Below are positions 3 to 9,761 of a DNA stretch of 64,000 nucleotides, piece after piece. Numbering within the stretch: the stretch's first letter is position 1; each line of letters starts with the position of its first letter. The translations under genes and the position numbers were made by a program. Location: contig JAAUZY010000060.1 of assembly GCA_014804355.1 (NCBI GenBank), forward strand, positions 1-64,000. Direction: 5' to 3'. The notes under the pieces are model-generated. The model was not told the DNA's origin. It ran no database searches and worked only from the letters and a program-made list of their open reading frames with translations. This DNA is from Lachnospiraceae bacterium. Lineage in GTDB: Bacteria; Bacillota; Clostridia; Lachnospirales; Lachnospiraceae.

Positions 3-761
3 GAATTATCAATGCAGAGACAAATTGGAAAGCTCTTATATCAGATTGATCAAAAAATAAACAATAATATTTGTATAAACAATAATTTACTGCAACAAGC
101 AAATGCCTTATATCGGCAACTTATCACAACATCCAACTGTACTACAGCCTCTATTGCTGATATAGCTGATAAGGTAGCTATGGGACCATTTGGATCAAAT
201 ATTAAAGTATCAACGTTTGTTTCGTCTGGGGTTCCTATCATAAGTGGAAATCACCTTCGTGGCTATCTGTTAGAAGAATCGGTTTTTAACTATATTACCG
301 AAGAACATGCGGAAAAACTCAAAAATTCTATTGTATATCCGCATGATCTTATATTCACTCATGCTGGGAATATTGGTCAAGTTGCTATGATTCATGACAG
401 GTGTAAGTACCACCGATATGTTTTATCCCAACGTCAATTTTATTTGCGATGCAATGAAGCAAAAGTAGTTCCTGAATTTCTACTCATGTATTTTCATAGT
501 GCGGCTGGACAGCACGAACTCTTATCGTATGCAAACCAAACTGGTGTACCATCAATAGCTCAACCAGCATCAAATCTTAAGAAGATAACATTCCCGTTAC
601 CTTCCATGCCAGAGCTCAGGAATTGGAAAGAATTGGTCAATCCTCTCTTTGAAACCTACATACATAATCGACAGGAAAACGAGAGATTGTCTTCTGTTCG
701 AGATGCTTTACTGCCCCAATTGATGTCTGGCGAGCTCGATGTTTCTGGCATAGATTTCTAA
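3..761 (+). CDS. hsdS: Type I restriction-modification specificity subunit HsdS, 3' part (5' end outside window)
   Basis: Reading frame is open to the left edge before the first ATG at 12; central conserved region IGKLLYQIDQKINNNICINNNLLQQANALYRQL, then one TRD and the C-terminal tail LLPQLMSGELDVSGIDF. Confidence 0.88.
   Translation, partial: ELSMQRQIGKLLYQIDQKINNNICINNNLLQQANALYRQLITTSNCTTASIADIADKVAMGPFGSNIKVSTFVSSGVPIISGNHLRGYLLEESVFNYITEEHAEKLKNSIVYPHDLIFTHAGNIGQVAMIHDRCKYHRYVLSQRQFYLRCNEAKVVPEFLLMYFHSAAGQHELLSYANQTGVPSIAQPASNLKKITFPLPSMPELRNWKELVNPLFETYIHNRQENERLSSVRDALLPQLMSGELDVSGIDF
75..89 (+). repeat. Left copy of 15-bp inverted repeat ATAAACAATAATTTA (encodes INNNL in the + hsdS)
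   Basis: Exact reverse complement of 767-781, in the same codon phase of the opposing hsdS. Confidence 0.85.
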
Positions 762-1261
762 GCCGCTAAATTATTGTTTATCGCCTTATTTATTTCAATT
801 TTTTCATCTATATTTCGCAATACACTTGATATTCTTTTCTGTGTATCAATATCATATCTAGGAACTTCATATTGCATTACTGAGGCCTTATCTCCTCTTG
901 GCATTTTTGTGCCTTTGGATGTAGCCATTGCATATGCAAAAAAATCATCGTTTGCAAGCACATAATACAAGAAACATTTATCTACATCTTCATTCGCCAC
1001 AAATACCATCACATCATTTGAACATCCTCCATCAAATGTGGCCTGCCATATTTTTTTGAAATACGGCCTGATATTTGAAACAAGTACATCTCCTTTCCTA
1101 TACTCCTGAGTCAATGAAACTGCAGGTAATGAACTTGCCTCTGTAATTCCAACTTTATTTGGTAACATATTTTCAGTTGATATATAATTACAATTATTTA
1201 AGGTATCTACTGCAACCTTGCTTTTTCTAAATGAACATATATCTAACAACCTATACGTCAT
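758..1261 (-). CDS. hsdS: Half-length HsdS (one TRD), truncated just after the central conserved region
   Basis: 167 aa ending ...ISSVLRNIDEKIEINKAINNNLAA*; start overlaps the end of hsdM. Confidence 0.85.
   Translation of the reverse strand: MTYRLLDICSFRKSKVAVDTLNNCNYISTENMLPNKVGITEASSLPAVSLTQEYRKGDVLVSNIRPYFKKIWQATFDGGCSNDVMVFVANEDVDKCFLYYVLANDDFFAYAMATSKGTKMPRGDKASVMQYEVPRYDIDTQKRISSVLRNIDEKIEINKAINNNLAA
767..781 (-). repeat. Right copy of 15-bp inverted repeat (TAAATTATTGTTTAT on +; INNNL in the - hsdS)
   Basis: Exact reverse complement of 75-89. Confidence 0.85.
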
Positions 1262-2762
1262 ACCCTATCGCCCCCAATTTCCTCCTTATCTCCTCTTCTA
1301 ATTCATGTGATTTGATAAACATACCCGATAGCTCTGAAGTAAGCCTTGCCATTTTTTCTTCAAATGGTTCTCCGTCGTCCTCCTGCTCTTCTATTCCAAC
1401 ATAACGCCCTGGCGTAAGAATATAATCCTGATTCGCTATATCTTGAATTGTTGCTACTGCACAAAAACCCTTTCTCTCTTCCAATTTTCCATTTTGAAAT
1501 GCTTCAAACGTATCTGCTAACTTTTTTATATCCTTCTCATCATCTAAGTCTCTATGCTTTCTATCCACCATATGCCCCATATTCCGGGCATCGATAAATA
1601 AGGTTTTTCCCTTTTGCTTTTTATTCTTAGTAATAAACCACAGGGTTACGGGAATAGTGACACTGTAAAAAAGCTGTGTAGGCATTGCAACAATGCCTTC
1701 AATTAGGTCGTCCTCTACTATTTTCTTACGAATTTCTCCTTCACCGCTTGACTGCGTCGATAACGCACCATTTGCAAGTACAAGCCCTATCTTTCCATTT
1801 GGTGCCAGATGATGAATCATATGTTGAATCCATGCATAGTTGGCATTCCCAGCTGGAGGCAGGCCATATTTCCAACGAGGGTCATCTACCAGTCTTTCCT
1901 GATTCCATGGATGATAGTTAAACGGAGGGTTGGCAAGTATAAAATCTGCTTTCAATGTTTTATGCCAGTCATTCATAAATGTGTCTGCCTGATATGGCCC
2001 GAAGTCTGCATCTATCCCCCTAATAGCCATATTCATTTTTGCCATTTTCCATGTATCAGCATTGGCTTCTTGTCCGTATACAGAAATTGCGCCTCTTTTC
2101 CCATTATGTGCCTGAATAAATTTTGCACTCTGTACAAACATACCGCCCGAACCACAGCACGGATCATATACTCGACAATTTTCAAATGGCTTAAGTATTT
2201 CAACCAGTGTTTTTACAATGCTTGACGGTGTATAGAACTCACCTCCGCTTGCTCCTTCTTTTTCTGCAAACTGTGCTATACAGTATTCATATGTTCTTCC
2301 AAGCAGATCTTCATTTGCTTCTGTATCAGCCATGTCAATGCTATTTGTAAAAATGTCAACCACATCACCTAAAATTCTTTTATCCAAATCAGGACTTGCA
2401 TAATTTTTAGGGAGTACATCTTTCAAACTCTTATTATCTGCCTCTATTGCCCGCATTGCATTATCAATTACTATACCAATCTCTGGAGTGTGCGCGGCAG
2501 AAGCAATCGTTGACCATCTTGCTTCCTCCGGTACAAAGAAAACATTTTCCATAGTATATGCATCAATATCATCTTCAAATCCATCGCCTTCATCAACCAA
2601 CTCTTTGTGCCTTTTATCAAATGCTGCCGAAATATATCTTAAAAATATAAGTCCCACAATGACTTTCCTATATTCTGCTGCCGGAATATGTCCCCATAAC
2701 ACACATGCCGCATCCCATATTTCTTTTTCAAAGCCAATATTCGCGTTATTCTTTTCCGCCAC
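1251..2762 (-). CDS. hsdM: Type I restriction-modification DNA methyltransferase subunit HsdM
   Basis: N6-adenine MTase motif NPPF, FxGxG-type motif YDPCCGSGGMFVQS, N-terminal HsdM helical region. Confidence 0.97.
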   Translation of the reverse strand: MAEKNNANIGFEKEIWDAACVLWGHIPAAEYRKVIVGLIFLRYISAAFDKRHKELVDEGDGFEDDIDAYTMENVFFVPEEARWSTIASAAHTPEIGIVIDNAMRAIEADNKSLKDVLPKNYASPDLDKRILGDVVDIFTNSIDMADTEANEDLLGRTYEYCIAQFAEKEGASGGEFYTPSSIVKTLVEILKPFENCRVYDPCCGSGGMFVQSAKFIQAHNGKRGAISVYGQEANADTWKMAKMNMAIRGIDADFGPYQADTFMNDWHKTLKADFILANPPFNYHPWNQERLVDDPRWKYGLPPAGNANYAWIQHMIHHLAPNGKIGLVLANGALSTQSSGEGEIRKKIVEDDLIEGIVAMPTQLFYSVTIPVTLWFITKNKKQKGKTLFIDARNMGHMVDRKHRDLDDEKDIKKLADTFEAFQNGKLEERKGFCAVATIQDIANQDYILTPGRYVGIEEQEDDGEPFEEKMARLTSELSGMFIKSHELEEEIRRKLGAIGYDV

Positions 2763-2969
2763 AGTTACTCCTCACTTTCAACTATATATTCCGCCCTTGA
2801 TTTACAACTTTTCACCAATCGCTTCACTGTGCCTTATAAAAAATGTGGATGCACCATCTACGGTATATCCACATAATATCAAAGCTTATCCCCTACAAAC
2901 ATTTCGTCGGTTCCTAACAAGACCGTGATAATATCTATATCCGAATCCGGGTTCAAGCTCTTCCCAATA

Positions 2970-3557
2970 CTACTCAAACTCCACAATCAGCCCCTGCATG
3001 ATATACAGAAGCTGTTCATCCACCATCTTCTCCGTGATCCCGAAAGTCTGTGCGTTGATCTTCATTCCTTCCAGTACATACATAATATTAGTCGCCGCTC
3101 CCCTGGGGTCTTCACAGTAAAACTCTCCACTGGCGATTCCGGCCTGAATGAGTTTCTCCAATACCCTGACACCCGCGTCGAACTGTCTGCGCAGCATATT
3201 GTTCTTATCAGTCGATTCATGTGCGAAGAAATATTCATAGACTGCAACGGTCAAATTATTCTTTTTCTGCAGCAGCTCTTTCTTCTGCTCCTTCAGGAAA
3301 AGAGTCAGGATATCCGCCGCCGTATCTTCCTCCGAAATATGTTCGGTGAAGACATCGTCCGTCTCCTGCGCTTCCATCTGTAAGATCTCCAAAAGAATCT
3401 GCTCCGTGCTGTCGAAATATAAGTACAACCCGCCCCGGCTGATCTCACATGCTTCCACGATATCCTTCATCGTCACATTCTTAAATCCCTTCTCCACGAA
3501 GACTTTCCTCGCGGTATCCAGAATATATTGTTTCTTCTGAACTGATTTTTCTCCCAT
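2970..3557 (-). CDS. TetR/AcrR family transcriptional regulator
   Basis: N-terminal HTH: ILDTARKVFVEKGFKNVTMKDIVEACEISRGGLYLYFDSTEQIL. Confidence 0.93.
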   Translation of the reverse strand: MGEKSVQKKQYILDTARKVFVEKGFKNVTMKDIVEACEISRGGLYLYFDSTEQILLEILQMEAQETDDVFTEHISEEDTAADILTLFLKEQKKELLQKKNNLTVAVYEYFFAHESTDKNNMLRRQFDAGVRVLEKLIQAGIASGEFYCEDPRGAATNIMYVLEGMKINAQTFGITEKMVDEQLLYIMQGLIVEFE

Positions 3558-3610
3558 GTTTTTCCTGTTTCCTTCTCCTTCTTAATTCTTAGCATTATTG
3601 ACTTTTCTGG

Positions 3611-4123
3611 TCATACCATCGGCTTATCCCAGAACTCCAGGTTTTCTTTCATCTTGCGTATCACTTTTAGGAAAATACTGTTATATACTGCCTCCGACCA
3701 CAATCTGGCTTTCGTCATACCGCCCAGCACATATTTAGACAAGATACCTTTCAGAATATCCATATCCATAATACTTGCCCGGTCAATCATCCTGAGCTCG
3801 TCCTGCAGCGTCCGTATTCTGTGTCTCGAATAGATATACGGATAGTTCCTGTCAAGCAGTGTCGTCCGCTGCACATCTTTGATAAAACTCATCAGTGTAC
3901 TGTCATATACCGGAAAAGTGATCGAACTCCCTTTGATTCCGGAGCCCTCGAAAGTCTCAGCCACATTGCTTCCCGCCTTTTCCTCCAGCCACGGAAGATA
4001 GCGGATCAGCCGCTCCACGTCCGGCTTATAGGTACTGACTATCTGTTTCCTGTATGCAATATCATCCTGCTGCTGTCTGTATCCGATTTCTTCCTTATCC
4101 ATCAACATTACCCTTCCTGACAT
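3611..4123 (-). CDS. Hypothetical protein (170 aa)
   Basis: Single uninterrupted ORF divergent from the 754-aa gene; family not recognised. Confidence 0.65.
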   Translation of the reverse strand: MSGRVMLMDKEEIGYRQQQDDIAYRKQIVSTYKPDVERLIRYLPWLEEKAGSNVAETFEGSGIKGSSITFPVYDSTLMSFIKDVQRTTLLDRNYPYIYSRHRIRTLQDELRMIDRASIMDMDILKGILSKYVLGGMTKARLWSEAVYNSIFLKVIRKMKENLEFWDKPMV

Positions 4124-4406
4124 ACAACCCCTAACATGACATTACTGTCAAATTACCGATTGACACTCTTTTCGACATCTCCGTCATATTATTCTAGCAT
4201 ACTTTCTATAAAAGTACAGCACAAAATACCGGCAATATTCTTGTGCAAGTTGCTATCCGTTGCCATCGCCGCCCATTCATTCTTGTAATTATCGCGCAAT
4301 CGTAGTAGACTAAAAGGTAGTGACAAAAGGGTCTCAAATGCACTAAGTGCACGTTATTTTTATGAAGAAGGGTATCTGCCCTTAGGCGGATAAAAGGGGT
4401 TATGTT

Positions 4407-6671
4407 ATGGCTGTAAAAGAATTTCCTGCGGGAGCGCTTCTGGTACAGAGCGAGCAGGCGATCAATGCGCTGCATGTGATTGCCAAAGGAACTGTGCGCG
4501 CCACCTATCCCGGTGGTGAATTTTACTTATCTAAGGGAGATGTCATCGGAGTCTGTGAGCTTTTCTTTGATTCCCACTTCATCACTTATCATACGGAAGA
4601 GGCTTCGTCCGTTGCTTCCTATCCGTTTAATACGTCGCAGCTCTCCGGCATCATACGTGCCAATCCTGATATGGCGCAGCGGATCGTTACATCCATGTTC
4701 AAACAATTACAAGAGATTCTGGATCAATATGAACTGGCATGTTTCGACTGCAATAATTTCTATCACTATCTGATGGACAGCTACAAAGGGTATCTGTCTT
4801 TTTGTACGAAGCACAATATCTCGGCCCGTGCATTGCCGGGACTGGAAACCCTATCCGAACTCGTTCTGGAAGAGGATGTGGCCGGATGGATCGGCGGCTA
4901 TTATTCACAGCTTCGCAAACTGGTTACCGGAACTCCCGTCAAGGAGCAGGATGCTGATTTTCTTCAGGGGCTTTTGCTCAAAGCGAGTCAGGATGTATAC
5001 GGAGTGATATCAGTGTGCCGTGTGCTGTATGACTATAAATCAGAAATCATCAATTTGCTAATGAGCAAAAACAGATTGGATTTCTTCGATCTGTATACCT
5101 CTCTGCTCTATAGGATCGGGGCTCATGCGGATGACTCCACCACACTGATTGCAGCAATCTCCACTATGATGATTCAATTGGAGAGTCAGGCATCTATAGA
5201 CAAAAATATGTATAAAGAACGTGTCTCCGAATACCGCGAACGCTTAAACTCCTTAGACCAGTATACGGAATCTGCTGCCGATGAGGATATGAAGCCGGAT
5301 AATGTTCCGGATATCGCAGACTCTATGAACACAATTCTGACCTATTCCAAAGTGGATGAAGAGACGGCCACCGCCTTTCGGAATGCTATTAATCAGTACA
5401 GCAAGCTGACTGACAAGAACAGCTCGGATGATACTTCCAGGAAACTGCGTCTGACCATCACCAAGCTGTTCTATCAGATCTATGAGAAAGCATTCCTTCG
5501 CAGCCTTCAGGATTTTGAGGTGCCCAAGGTGCTTAAGATGTTCTTTAATTTCGGCTATGTGGACGAACATCTGGCCGGCATGGAGAATGCTGCCTATCTC
5601 TATTCTATTGTGGACAGAATTCCTTCGGACCCGTCCAGAAAAGTGTTTACGATCTACGAGTGGCTGCATGCCATCTATGAAGGAAAGAAAACACCCAGCC
5701 GTAACGAATTCGATACCGACTATCAGGCTTACGTGCATGAGCTCAAAATAACCGGCAAGATCACCGCCAAGGAAGAGACGACCATGCTCAAAGACCGGGA
5801 GAAACAGGTAATGTTCGAACTGCAGAACATGTTCCAGTCCGTCAATAAGATTACTTTCGGACGGATCAGCAGCTTCTGTCCGGTGTTCTCGGAGCATAAT
5901 ATCTTAAAAGAGCTGGATAAGTCCCTCGTATCCGCCGATAAGGTGGAACAGACCTTTAATCAGGTTCGTTCCGTTGACTTCAGCGCGTACTACCGGGATA
6001 TGGTCTACACCAACCCTAAGCTGGGTATCGGTAAGGAATATGTCAGCGTAGAGATTCTCCCCGATCTGATCCTGATGCCAAACGTAGGTGTCAGAGGTGT
6101 TATGTGGCAGGAGATCGAAGGGCGTAAGCGTACCACCCCTTCCCGTATGATGATATCCATCTTCCAGATGGAGGATCTGACTAACATTCTGGTAAGGCTT
6201 ACCGGCGACTTCCGCTGGGAAATGTGCAAGCGCGTACAGGGTGCCCGATGGAACGATATCTCCGAAGCTTCTCTTACCAGCGAATATTTCGATTATATTC
6301 AGTTCTATAAGAAAAACCATGATCTGTCTCCTGATGCCAAGGATAAGATCAAACTCAATATGCAGAAGGCTAAGAACAGCTTTAAAGAAATGTTTATCAG
6401 AGATTATATATCCTGGGTTCTCTTCGAGGGTTCCGGTTCTCCCCGTCTGAACAAAATAGCCCGGGCTATTCTGTTCACCTACTGTCCGTTCTCCAAGGAG
6501 ATCCGCGATAAGCTGAAGATGAACCCTCTCTATAAGGATACGATGGAACGCTACGATATTAAACTCGCGCAGAAGATCCATCACTATGATAACCTGTTCC
6601 AGAAACTGAAGAATATCGGTGCGGAAATTCCGCCGGAGATCCAGAGTCAGCGTAATTATCTCGGTTATTGA
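4407..6671 (+). CDS. Large protein with N-terminal cyclic-nucleotide-binding (Crp-like) domain and a ~600-aa unassigned region
   Basis: N-terminus AVKEFPAGALLVQSEQAINALHVIAKGTVRATYPGGEFYLSKGDVIGVCELFF fits a cNMP-binding beta-roll; the rest has no recognised motif. Confidence 0.8.
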   Translation: MAVKEFPAGALLVQSEQAINALHVIAKGTVRATYPGGEFYLSKGDVIGVCELFFDSHFITYHTEEASSVASYPFNTSQLSGIIRANPDMAQRIVTSMFKQLQEILDQYELACFDCNNFYHYLMDSYKGYLSFCTKHNISARALPGLETLSELVLEEDVAGWIGGYYSQLRKLVTGTPVKEQDADFLQGLLLKASQDVYGVISVCRVLYDYKSEIINLLMSKNRLDFFDLYTSLLYRIGAHADDSTTLIAAISTMMIQLESQASIDKNMYKERVSEYRERLNSLDQYTESAADEDMKPDNVPDIADSMNTILTYSKVDEETATAFRNAINQYSKLTDKNSSDDTSRKLRLTITKLFYQIYEKAFLRSLQDFEVPKVLKMFFNFGYVDEHLAGMENAAYLYSIVDRIPSDPSRKVFTIYEWLHAIYEGKKTPSRNEFDTDYQAYVHELKITGKITAKEETTMLKDREKQVMFELQNMFQSVNKITFGRISSFCPVFSEHNILKELDKSLVSADKVEQTFNQVRSVDFSAYYRDMVYTNPKLGIGKEYVSVEILPDLILMPNVGVRGVMWQEIEGRKRTTPSRMMISIFQMEDLTNILVRLTGDFRWEMCKRVQGARWNDISEASLTSEYFDYIQFYKKNHDLSPDAKDKIKLNMQKAKNSFKEMFIRDYISWVLFEGSGSPRLNKIARAILFTYCPFSKEIRDKLKMNPLYKDTMERYDIKLAQKIHHYDNLFQKLKNIGAEIPPEIQSQRNYLGY

Positions 6672-6880
6672 TTTGTTTTTATAGGCAAAATATTTTTATT
6701 CTTCCACCATATTTTAGCTATATTTATCATTTTCCGACTTGTTTCGCTAATATAGTTTTATTCTTTTGTAATATAATTATAGACTCTGTCGAAAAAAAAG
6801 ATTATATTAATTATAGACTTGATCACGGAAGTCAAGTCGGTTATAGCAATTCCGGAAGAATTCCCCTTTTACACAAGCGA

Positions 6881-6911
6881 AAACCTCGAAGGCACGGAAC
6901 CTTCGAGGTTT
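6881..6911. terminator. Intrinsic terminator, potentially bidirectional
   Basis: AAACCTCGAAGG-CACGGAA-CCTTCGAGGTTT, 12-bp perfect stem flanked by A/T runs between convergent genes. Confidence 0.9.
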
Positions 6912-6944
6912 TTGCTTATACTGCACAACTATTCTTCATTCGCG

Positions 6945-8702
6945 CTACTTTACTATCAGCACTGAGTACCCAGGCATCGTCGCCACACTACCCTCGATCG
7001 CAACTGCCTCATCTCCTGTAGTGAGCGTTGCACGTACCTCTGTGGTATCTCCCACCGCATTGCCGTTCAGCGTAATACTGCTTAAATCTACCGCCTCGTT
7101 CTCTGCACCCGTGTTGAACACGAGAAGCACCTCTGAACCATCGTAAACCTTCCGAAGCACACATATCTTTTCTCCGGATACTTGATCCAGATACTCTGCC
7201 GTTCCTCTGGCAATCTCGGGATTCTGATTTCTTACCTTGATCGCTTTCTTGTAGTAATTGTAGATCGAATCGCAATCCGGCTGCTGCTCCTCCAAGCTGT
7301 CATATTTCATCTCGAAAGAATCCATATCCGCCGGACCATCGCACATGCCTTCCGTCTCTGAGTCCTTACTCCAGTACATGGGCGCGCGTTTATTCTCGTC
7401 CTTACCGGAACCTTTCATGCCCAGTTCCTCTCCGTAATAGACAAACGCCGAACCGCTCATAAACAGATTCATCGCTCCTGCCATCTTAACGCGGTTTAAG
7501 GAGTTTTCTCCCACATAATAGCCGACGCTTCTCGCCATATCGTGATTGGTATAAAAAGGCGCATCAATATAGTTCTCATTATACTGTCCGAATGTCTCCG
7601 TAAGTGATGCACAGGAAGTGCCGTACTTCTCCGCCGATGTACCGTTCATAACCTTTGCGATAACGCCCTCCGCTCCCGCAAAAGCAAAGTTGAAGAGACT
7701 GTCCATACCGCTGGCATAATATCTGGAATATTCATTGATATTAAGCCATGCCTCTCCCACCAGATATGCGTCGTCTTTCTGTTCTTTGACTACATCAGTC
7801 AGCCATGCCAGAAAATCAATATTTTCCTGCTGTCCGTCAGTATAGTATTCCTTAACCGCATCCAGCCGGAAGCCGCCCACACCCATATCCAGCCAGTACG
7901 CGGTAATCTTCGCGATCTCATCCCGAAGCGCTTCGCAATCCAGATTCAGATCCGGCATCTCGCTCCAGAACTGCCCCTCGTAGTACCAATCCGTTCCCGC
8001 CACTTTATAATAGCCGCTTTGCTCTTCCTTGGAAAAGTGATAATAATCGAAATATGGGCACTCCTCCGTATTCGGTTCGCCATCCCCAAGATTCTTCAGA
8101 TAGGTACACGCTTCCTGAAACCAAGGATGCTTGGAAGATGAATGATTTAACACCAGATCCATAATGACCTTAATTCCTCTCTCATCACATGCCGCAAGAA
8201 ATTCCTTGAAATCATCCAGCGTACCGTATACCGGGTCAATATCATAATAATCCGTCACATCATACTTATGATAGGTCGGCGACGGATGAACCGGCATAAG
8301 CCATATTCCGTTACACCCTAAGTCCTCGTCGGTCGTATCATCTCCGTCATTGATATAATCCAGTTTGGAGATCAGCCCCTGCAGATCGCCGATCCCGTCC
8401 CCGTTACTGTCATAGAAGGAGTATACAAACACTTCATAATAAGTACGGTAATTATCATCTATGATATTCAGAGGGATCGTATCCGTGATATCCAGCTGCG
8501 ACTGCGCCGCTTCCCCACTCTCAGCTTCCGCCATATCGCCCTGCTGTGCGTCTGACGCGCCACCTACATCTTCCTCCGCCGCACCTTCCGTCTGTCCGGC
8601 TGCCTGTGGTACTTCCTCCGCCTTCCCACAGGAAGTCACGAACATCAGGCACAGTGCCATCACAAGAGCAATATTCCGCACAGTTCTCCTGTCCTTTCTC
8701 AT
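6945..8702 (-). CDS. GH13 alpha-amylase-family lipoprotein
   Basis: GIWLMPVHPSPTYHKYDVTDYYDIDPVYGT, GGFRLDAVKEYY, FYTNHDMARS; lipobox MFVTSCGK after the preferred start MRKDRRT (ORF track starts at 8792). Confidence 0.94.
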   Translation of the reverse strand: MRKDRRTVRNIALVMALCLMFVTSCGKAEEVPQAAGQTEGAAEEDVGGASDAQQGDMAEAESGEAAQSQLDITDTIPLNIIDDNYRTYYEVFVYSFYDSNGDGIGDLQGLISKLDYINDGDDTTDEDLGCNGIWLMPVHPSPTYHKYDVTDYYDIDPVYGTLDDFKEFLAACDERGIKVIMDLVLNHSSSKHPWFQEACTYLKNLGDGEPNTEECPYFDYYHFSKEEQSGYYKVAGTDWYYEGQFWSEMPDLNLDCEALRDEIAKITAYWLDMGVGGFRLDAVKEYYTDGQQENIDFLAWLTDVVKEQKDDAYLVGEAWLNINEYSRYYASGMDSLFNFAFAGAEGVIAKVMNGTSAEKYGTSCASLTETFGQYNENYIDAPFYTNHDMARSVGYYVGENSLNRVKMAGAMNLFMSGSAFVYYGEELGMKGSGKDENKRAPMYWSKDSETEGMCDGPADMDSFEMKYDSLEEQQPDCDSIYNYYKKAIKVRNQNPEIARGTAEYLDQVSGEKICVLRKVYDGSEVLLVFNTGAENEAVDLSSITLNGNAVGDTTEVRATLTTGDEAVAIEGSVATMPGYSVLIVK

Positions 8703-8800
8703 ATTCCTGTCACACACCTTTCTAATTCTGAAAAATGCAGACCGCCCACAGACAGTCTGCATTTCCATATTTATTTCTATTATAACCTTCAACTCAGCCG

Positions 8801-8895
8801 GGAAGAATGCTCGCCGTCCTCGGCGGCATTCTTCCGGAGATGATATAGTTATACTTAGGCTGCGTATTTTGCAGCCTTAGTATATCTTCATCTCC
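8801..8895. repeat. Two-hairpin dispersed element, copy 1
   Basis: GGAAGAATGCtCGCCG-TCCT-CGGCGGCATTCTTCC followed by GGAGATGAtatagtTATACTtAGGCTGC-gtatttt-GCAGCCTtAGTATAtctTCATCTCC; see copy 2 at 22007-22093. Confidence 0.85.
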
Positions 8896-9761
8896 TAACC
8901 TTTGACAGCACCACCCGTAACACCTTCTACATAGTACTTCTGCAGGCACATGAAAAGTATCGTGATCGGCACTGCGATCAACATACCACCCGCACAGAAA
9001 CGTGTGAAGTAGCCCTGATAGTCATTGGTCCATACCCATCTCTGCATCGCTACAGCTACGTTATAGCTGTCGGAATAACCGAATGCCACATAGGAAGCAA
9101 ATACGTAATCGCACCAAGGATTCATGAAAGCTGTCAATAATGCGTAGATGATAATCGGCTTCGACATCGGCAGGATCATCGTGAAGAATACTCTCGCTCT
9201 GGAAGCGCCGTCGATTCGTGCCGCCTCATCAAGCGCCTTCGGAATCGTATCGAAATATCCCTTGGTCACGTAATATCCCATACCGGAACTTGCCACACCG
9301 ATTAAGATCAATCCCGGAATCGCGCCCTCCTGTGTCAGACCGAACTGCTTCAGCAGGAAGTACAGGCAGATCATGGAAAGGAATCCGGGGAACATACCCA
9401 GAATCAACCAGAATCTCATCAATACGGTACGACCTTTAAAACGCATACGTGACAGTGCATAGCTTACACACAATACCATCATTGTCGATAATATCGCTAC
9501 AAAGAACGCAATGACCAGAGTATTGCCGTACCAGCGCACGAACTTGCTCTCTTCGCTGAACAGGAACGCATAGGAATCCAGCGAGAACTTCTTCGGCAGC
9601 AGGTAATCTACCATACCGCCGCCGCCTTCGTCCATGGAACGAAAGCTCTGTAAAAACATACATACAAACGGGAATAACCATATGATACTGATAACAATTA
9701 ATACAATATAGGTAATTGTATTGCTTATCGCTCTTTTTGTTTTCATTGAACTTGTTGTCAT
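8895..9761 (-). CDS. malG: Maltodextrin ABC transporter permease, MalG-like
   Basis: Permease with EAA-type loop DEAARIDGASRARVFFTMILPMSKPI. Confidence 0.93.
   Translation of the reverse strand: MTTSSMKTKRAISNTITYIVLIVISIIWLFPFVCMFLQSFRSMDEGGGGMVDYLLPKKFSLDSYAFLFSEESKFVRWYGNTLVIAFFVAILSTMMVLCVSYALSRMRFKGRTVLMRFWLILGMFPGFLSMICLYFLLKQFGLTQEGAIPGLILIGVASSGMGYYVTKGYFDTIPKALDEAARIDGASRARVFFTMILPMSKPIIIYALLTAFMNPWCDYVFASYVAFGYSDSYNVAVAMQRWVWTNDYQGYFTRFCAGGMLIAVPITILFMCLQKYYVEGVTGGAVKG

Follow-up and report, generated by a model that had tools for sequence, protein, structure and literature searches.

The window, by which we mean the whole 64-kb stretch of DNA analysed here (64,000 nucleotides), begins with the first base of contig C60, part of a 3.85-Mb draft assembly in 115 contigs from a gut bacterium whose relatives place it in the Lachnospiraceae, and its plus-strand hsdS frame therefore opens mid-gene. 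Close to this end, the minus strand carries hsdM (1251-2762), an open reading frame for a type I N6-adenine methyltransferase subunit of 503 aa (Pfam N6_Mtase, 3e-109, plus HsdM_N). The 3' end of this gene overlaps with the beginning of a 5' half of hsdS with one TRD, termed head D (758-1261, minus strand; 167 aa; Methylase_S, 1e-6). On the plus strand, antisense to hsdM, lies the 3' part of a second 5' half, head B (1-74), in frame with a 3' half that contributes the second TRD and reads INNNL-LQQANALYRQL...SGIDF* (tail A; open reading frame at 75-761). As described in an earlier note on this DNA, the two genes share an exact 15-bp inverted repeat, ATAAACAATAATTTA, present at 75-89 on the plus strand (site r2) and at 767-781 on the minus strand (site r1, the junction between head D and the end of tail A, whose position is conserved in relatives). 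Both copies are read as ATA-AAC-AAT-AAT-TTA, or INNNL, in the converging hsdS frames; head D stops two codons past its copy, ending INNNL-AA*, and the stop codons of the two genes overlap within 758-761 (TAA at 759-761 for the plus gene, TAG at 758-760 for the minus gene). As sequence, the half HsdS beside hsdM is real.

With up to one mismatch allowed, no further match to ATAAACAATAATTTA was found in the 64-kb window, and shuffled sequences gave none. The 14-bp core of the repeat, TAAACAATAATTTA, which here takes the form TAAA-CAATAA-TTTA and codes for I-N-N-N-L midway along HsdS, has five copies in the 3.85-Mb assembly, at hsdS junctions only and at four places of the locus, and its non-complemented reverse is absent from the whole assembly. 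The shuffles and the whole-assembly count rule out a chance repeat. The repeats are located inside hsdS, at the TRD borders, and the joins they make are in frame.

The remainder of the locus was found on contig C87 of the same assembly (locus L012; 10,058 bp), which is linked to C60 by exact overlaps. It had been proposed to look left of the window for a tyrosine recombinase, hsdR and the 5' half of the plus-strand hsdS; C87 carries all three, and the adjoining recombinase and hsdR bear out the assignment to inverting type I hsdS loci. The contig shows, in this order, a non-coding copy of the 14-bp core (65-78); two small ORFs, DUF7724 and DUF4160, between site r2 and the recombinase (103-872); the tyrosine recombinase itself, of 327 aa (958-1941; Phage_integrase, 3e-30); and an intact hsdS of 374 aa (1956-3080), composed of the complete head B (1956-2489) and a second tail, tail C. 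Head B sits directly 3' of the recombinase stop, with a GAGG-like, ribosome-binding-like stretch and an ATG. Further site copies are placed between head B and tail C (2491-2504; r3) and at the end of tail C (3086-3099; r4). Then follow a 285-aa ORF (3093-3950) without Pfam or PADLOC match, hsdR (4068-7265) and, directly behind hsdR, a GmrSD-type gene (7281-9347; GmrSD_N, GmrSD_C and DUF5655) matched by the PADLOC models Orf5 and HEC-06, given which the locus may amount to a small defence island. Taken across C60 and C87, hsdM, hsdR and at least two hsdS frames are thus present in one locus. Elsewhere in the genome, contigs C89 and C109 carry two more type I R-M systems with hsdS genes, the C89 hsdS running off the end of its contig; and in Lactococcus plasmids a DUF3800 gene occupies the position equivalent to that of the 285-aa ORF.

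All four joins between a head and a tail start are open in silico, namely, D-A (388 aa), D-C (356 aa), B-A (406 aa) and B-C (374 aa), whereas a head joined to a tail end meets a stop two codons later, INNNL-AA*, and yields a half HsdS. The inversion of 75-781 envisaged in the earlier note, when carried out in silico, gives the minus gene an uninterrupted D-A protein of 388 aa (about 385 had been predicted) and leaves the plus frame ending INNNL-AA*. In its own arrangement the locus has head D as a half and head B complete. The idea that hsdM is paired only with a half subunit was not sustained, because a complete HsdS, of 374 aa (B-C) or 406 aa (B-A), is encoded behind the recombinase.

The two contigs disagree on what adjoins the tail starts. 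Positions 1-89 of the window match C87 2416-2504 exactly (head B, 1-74, corresponding to 2416-2489), after which the contigs split into tail A and tail C, respectively. Conversely, C87 1-80 is the exact reverse complement of window 74-153, and continues into a non-coding flank, dead1, instead of head B. Site r2 is hence joined to head B in C60 and to dead1 in C87, and the assembled sample holds B/A-start, B/C-start and dead1/A-start junctions. The D/A-end junction at r1 is unbroken through C60, and the end of tail C is unbroken too; the alternative junctions involve tail starts only. These junctions point to exchange at r2 and r3, which bound the recombinase segment, and the simplest single event that would explain them is an inversion of this segment rather than a flip of 75-781, the left end of C60 suggesting a recombinase-inverted form. 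A tail swap could give rise to the same junctions, but the unbroken junctions at r1 and r4 argue against it. The heterogeneity is read from unphased contig ends of a metagenome-derived assembly, and the differences could be between strains rather than within one clone. An assembly is not expected to break at a 15-bp repeat that is fixed.

A query with the recombinase retrieved 80 loci in named genomes, plus further loci, and the same anatomy recurs in about 80 loci, with recombinases that are 72-80% identical. The distribution is patchy. Within the genus, 8 of 77 species gave a match at E<=1e-60; at the family level and under a stricter cut-off (E<=1e-130), 16 of 397 sampled genomes did. Most related loci have the sites at the same four places and keep the gene order. 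In 58 loci the recombinase lies between an upstream hsdM and a downstream hsdR, co-oriented, and hsdR usually comes after the shuffling part. The gap from r2 to the recombinase is only about 100-115 bp in most relatives, as against the small ORFs found here. The general form of the core is TAAA-NNNNAA-TTTA; among 98 loci its middle is CAAT in 42, CGAT in 18, TGAT in 13, CGAG in 11 and CAAG in 11, with three singletons. Within a locus, site copies taken at no more than one mismatch vary only at the outer positions 1, 2, 13 and 14. A middle that is constant within a locus and varied between loci is what a crossover region should show. Recombinases less than about 66% identical, which mostly come without an exact site of this form, were left out of the analysis. 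Contig ends near the recombinase in relatives fall within 82 bp of a site in 11 of 21 cases, seven of these within 4 bp. Two loci, L073 and L094, are 3.2-kb contigs with both ends exactly at a site, in which the minus strand carries hsdM and a head, and the plus strand the recombinase; their layout is different, hsdM seeming to lie inside the mobile segment.

Near-identical relatives that are differently arranged show rearrangement directly. First, in L083 and L090 head D is 100% identical and the central segment 99.9%, and a tail that is 99.8% identical has been flipped in place to the opposite orientation; how the tails are arranged is all that distinguishes the two. Second, four Lactococcus plasmid records are 100% identical in head D and in the recombinase segment, and the tail arrangement alone differs: in pJM2A and pUC073A, D is joined to P and Q is inverted; in pUCCL627F, D is joined to Q and P is inverted; and Lactococcus cremoris pJM1A (L152) has D as a half, B-P complete, and tail P present twice. 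In pJM1A, the same 635-bp tail occupies both tail places in opposite orientation and the other tail is lost, suggesting an exchange between plasmid copies. The site of these plasmids is TAAATCATCATTTA, the repeat published for the SsuCC20p system of Streptococcus suis.

We then scored which heads are complete in 67 independent loci, with recombinases at least 97% identical collapsed. Head D is complete and head B a half in 35, and the reverse holds in 28; both are halves in three and both complete in one. Exactly one head is therefore complete in 63 of 67, where half would be expected if flips were independent (binomial p about 6e-15, phylogeny not corrected). The apparent exceptions are L027 and L023, with none complete (head B of L023 opens only 27 codons), L055, with two, and L124, a doubtful call; L157 of L. 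salivarius, in which both heads are halves, is another. The recombinase is inverted in four loci. L042 is arranged like the window (D half, B full), with an hsdM only 26% identical; L082, L084 and L085 are arranged like the window after a flip of 75-781 (D full, B half), with hsdM 83-88% identical.

The locus is very probably of the SsuCC20p kind, a type I R-M locus with four sites that is shuffled by its recombinase. In S. suis, shuffling has been shown experimentally to depend on xerD, each assembly and each long read contained a single complete hsdS, the hsdS located behind xerD was found to be expressed and to methylate, and no inverted xerD was found (PMC10790761). The present locus resembles SsuCC20p in having hsdM, hsdR, four TRDs and one xerD-type recombinase; in its 14-bp inverted repeats, which form two identical sets of the type TAAA-N6-TTTA (TAAATCATCATTTA in S. 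suis), each flanking a 3' TRD; in that a single hsdS is complete in any arrangement, be it the one behind hsdM or the one behind the recombinase, with a truncated partner; and in that the recombinase gene immediately precedes the second hsdS head (here C87 958-1941, then 1956-3080). This shared anatomy, together with the one-complete rule, places it within a known kind. It differs from SsuCC20p in the site middle, CAATAA, in the small ORFs between r2 and the recombinase, and in junctions that suggest a recombinase-inverted form, not seen in S. suis.

The proposed order of parts would be hsdM, head D, r1, a tail, r2, a central segment (flank, DUF7724 and DUF4160 ORFs, tyrosine recombinase and head B), r3, a tail, r4, the ORF and hsdR. 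From the parts, the sites, the in-frame joins, the alternative assembly junctions and the rearrangement between near-identical relatives, all observed, we infer that the C87 tyrosine recombinase carries out the shuffling and that the shuffling switches the methylation motif. The recombinase would exchange strands at the 14-bp core, TAAA-CAATAA-TTTA; since this codes for I-N-N-N-L in mid-HsdS, either tail start could follow any head in frame. Here, head D is the half form, and the complete HsdS would come from head B with tail A or tail C.

Why only one hsdS should be complete is a matter for conjecture. Conceivably, though we consider it rather unlikely, the four-site design keeps one complete HsdS at every step: only sites that share a flank would recombine (two tail starts, two tail ends or two heads), and single inversions would proceed through recombinase-inverted intermediates, of which the arrangement at the left edge of the window may be an example. 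If true, such a rule would supplant the guess of a "coordinated double recombination" for SsuCC20p. In flank profiles, the upstream flanks of dead sites are weakly conserved, and so they do not by themselves prove flank matching. The GCGGCTTA stretch adjoining the core at tail ends of relatives (for example, L020:7244-7252) is 75-93% conserved per base. That this includes third codon positions that are free to vary suggests a role at the DNA level, albeit one not separable from a stop-codon role.

Among other explanations, the one that fares best is that the half HsdS is itself functional, two D halves dimerising to give HsdM a palindromic motif, such that each state would have one full and one half enzyme. 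A half HsdS engineered from S. aureus CC398-1 has methyltransferase activity (PMC6158711), half forms nearly always end exactly two codons past the site, and D-heads are conserved and under purifying selection (pN/pS 0.20-0.36). However, the CC398-1 construct retained the central region in full, while D stops within this region, and SsuCC20p methylation is accounted for by complete hsdS alleles (PMC10790761). Moreover, the same head D is a half in L020, L031, L025 and L083 but full in L076, L032 and L090; because heads alternate between full and half, selection on D-heads is expected in any case. A functional half HsdS at this locus is possible but unproven, and we regard it as unlikely.

Less probable still is the reading of the earlier note, a two-state switch in which inversion of 75-781 exchanges the full and half forms, and hsdM is left with the half subunit in the present state. 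Part of it stands: the flip is in frame in silico and would exchange the two forms, relatives show both arrangements (L042-like before the flip; L082-, L084- and L085-like after it), and L083 and L090 differ by a tail flipped in place. But there are four sites rather than two, along with two heads and two tails, the alternative junctions occur at tail starts and point to r2 and r3 with r1 unbroken, and a full hsdS is present behind the recombinase. Finally, it is highly improbable that we deal with a static duplicated hsdS, the 15-bp match reflecting conserved INNNL codons and the contig breaks strain mixture or assembly error, for although INNNL-like motifs are frequent at the same place in HsdS proteins of relatives, and the assembly is a draft in 115 contigs, the site is exact in DNA, including the non-coding copy at C87 65-78 and tail-end copies outside codons, its middle bases are locus-specific, in other genomes, too, contig ends are clustered at sites, and near-identical relatives are rearranged (Lactococcus plasmids; L083 and L090).

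The four-site shuffling locus also invites comparison with better-known inverting systems. Like SpnIII, the cod locus with CreX (PsrA) of Streptococcus pneumoniae, it has a tyrosine recombinase inside a type I locus and HsdS halves swapped by inversion, and one repeat pair of SpnIII is also 15 bp; but SpnIII has three unlike repeat pairs (15, 85 and about 300 bp) with the core ATTATGGGAA, silent hsdS copies and six alleles (PMC4948785, PMC7096588, PMC6620402). The hsd loci of Listeria monocytogenes CC8 and CC4 likewise produce four HsdS alleles by TRD shuffling, with an integrase between the hsdS genes, but use two unlike repeat pairs of other sequence, swap both TRDs into one expressed gene, and have a second hsdS without start codon or promoter (PMC4783014, PMC7662400). 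Site comparison led us to reject the notion that the site is of the CreX/PsrA or Listeria CC8 type.

What goes beyond this literature is the breadth of the four-site loci in Bacillota, the locus-specific site middle and the recombinase-inverted forms, with the proviso that open-licence papers were searched and that the breadth may be reported elsewhere. A mechanism shown in one zoonotic streptococcus would thereby extend to many Bacillota, mostly gut anaerobes, and the signature TAAA-NNNNAA-TTTA, coding for I-N-x-N-L with a middle fixed per locus, could serve to find such loci. Why a single specificity gene should be complete in any one arrangement becomes testable too, as does a role of recombinase-inverted forms as intermediates. 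Short-read and metagenome assemblies break at the 14-bp site, so that hsdS genes appear truncated. A recombinase of 58% identity is carried by an archaeal plasmid, NZ_CP118754, of Methanosphaera sp. ISO3-F5.
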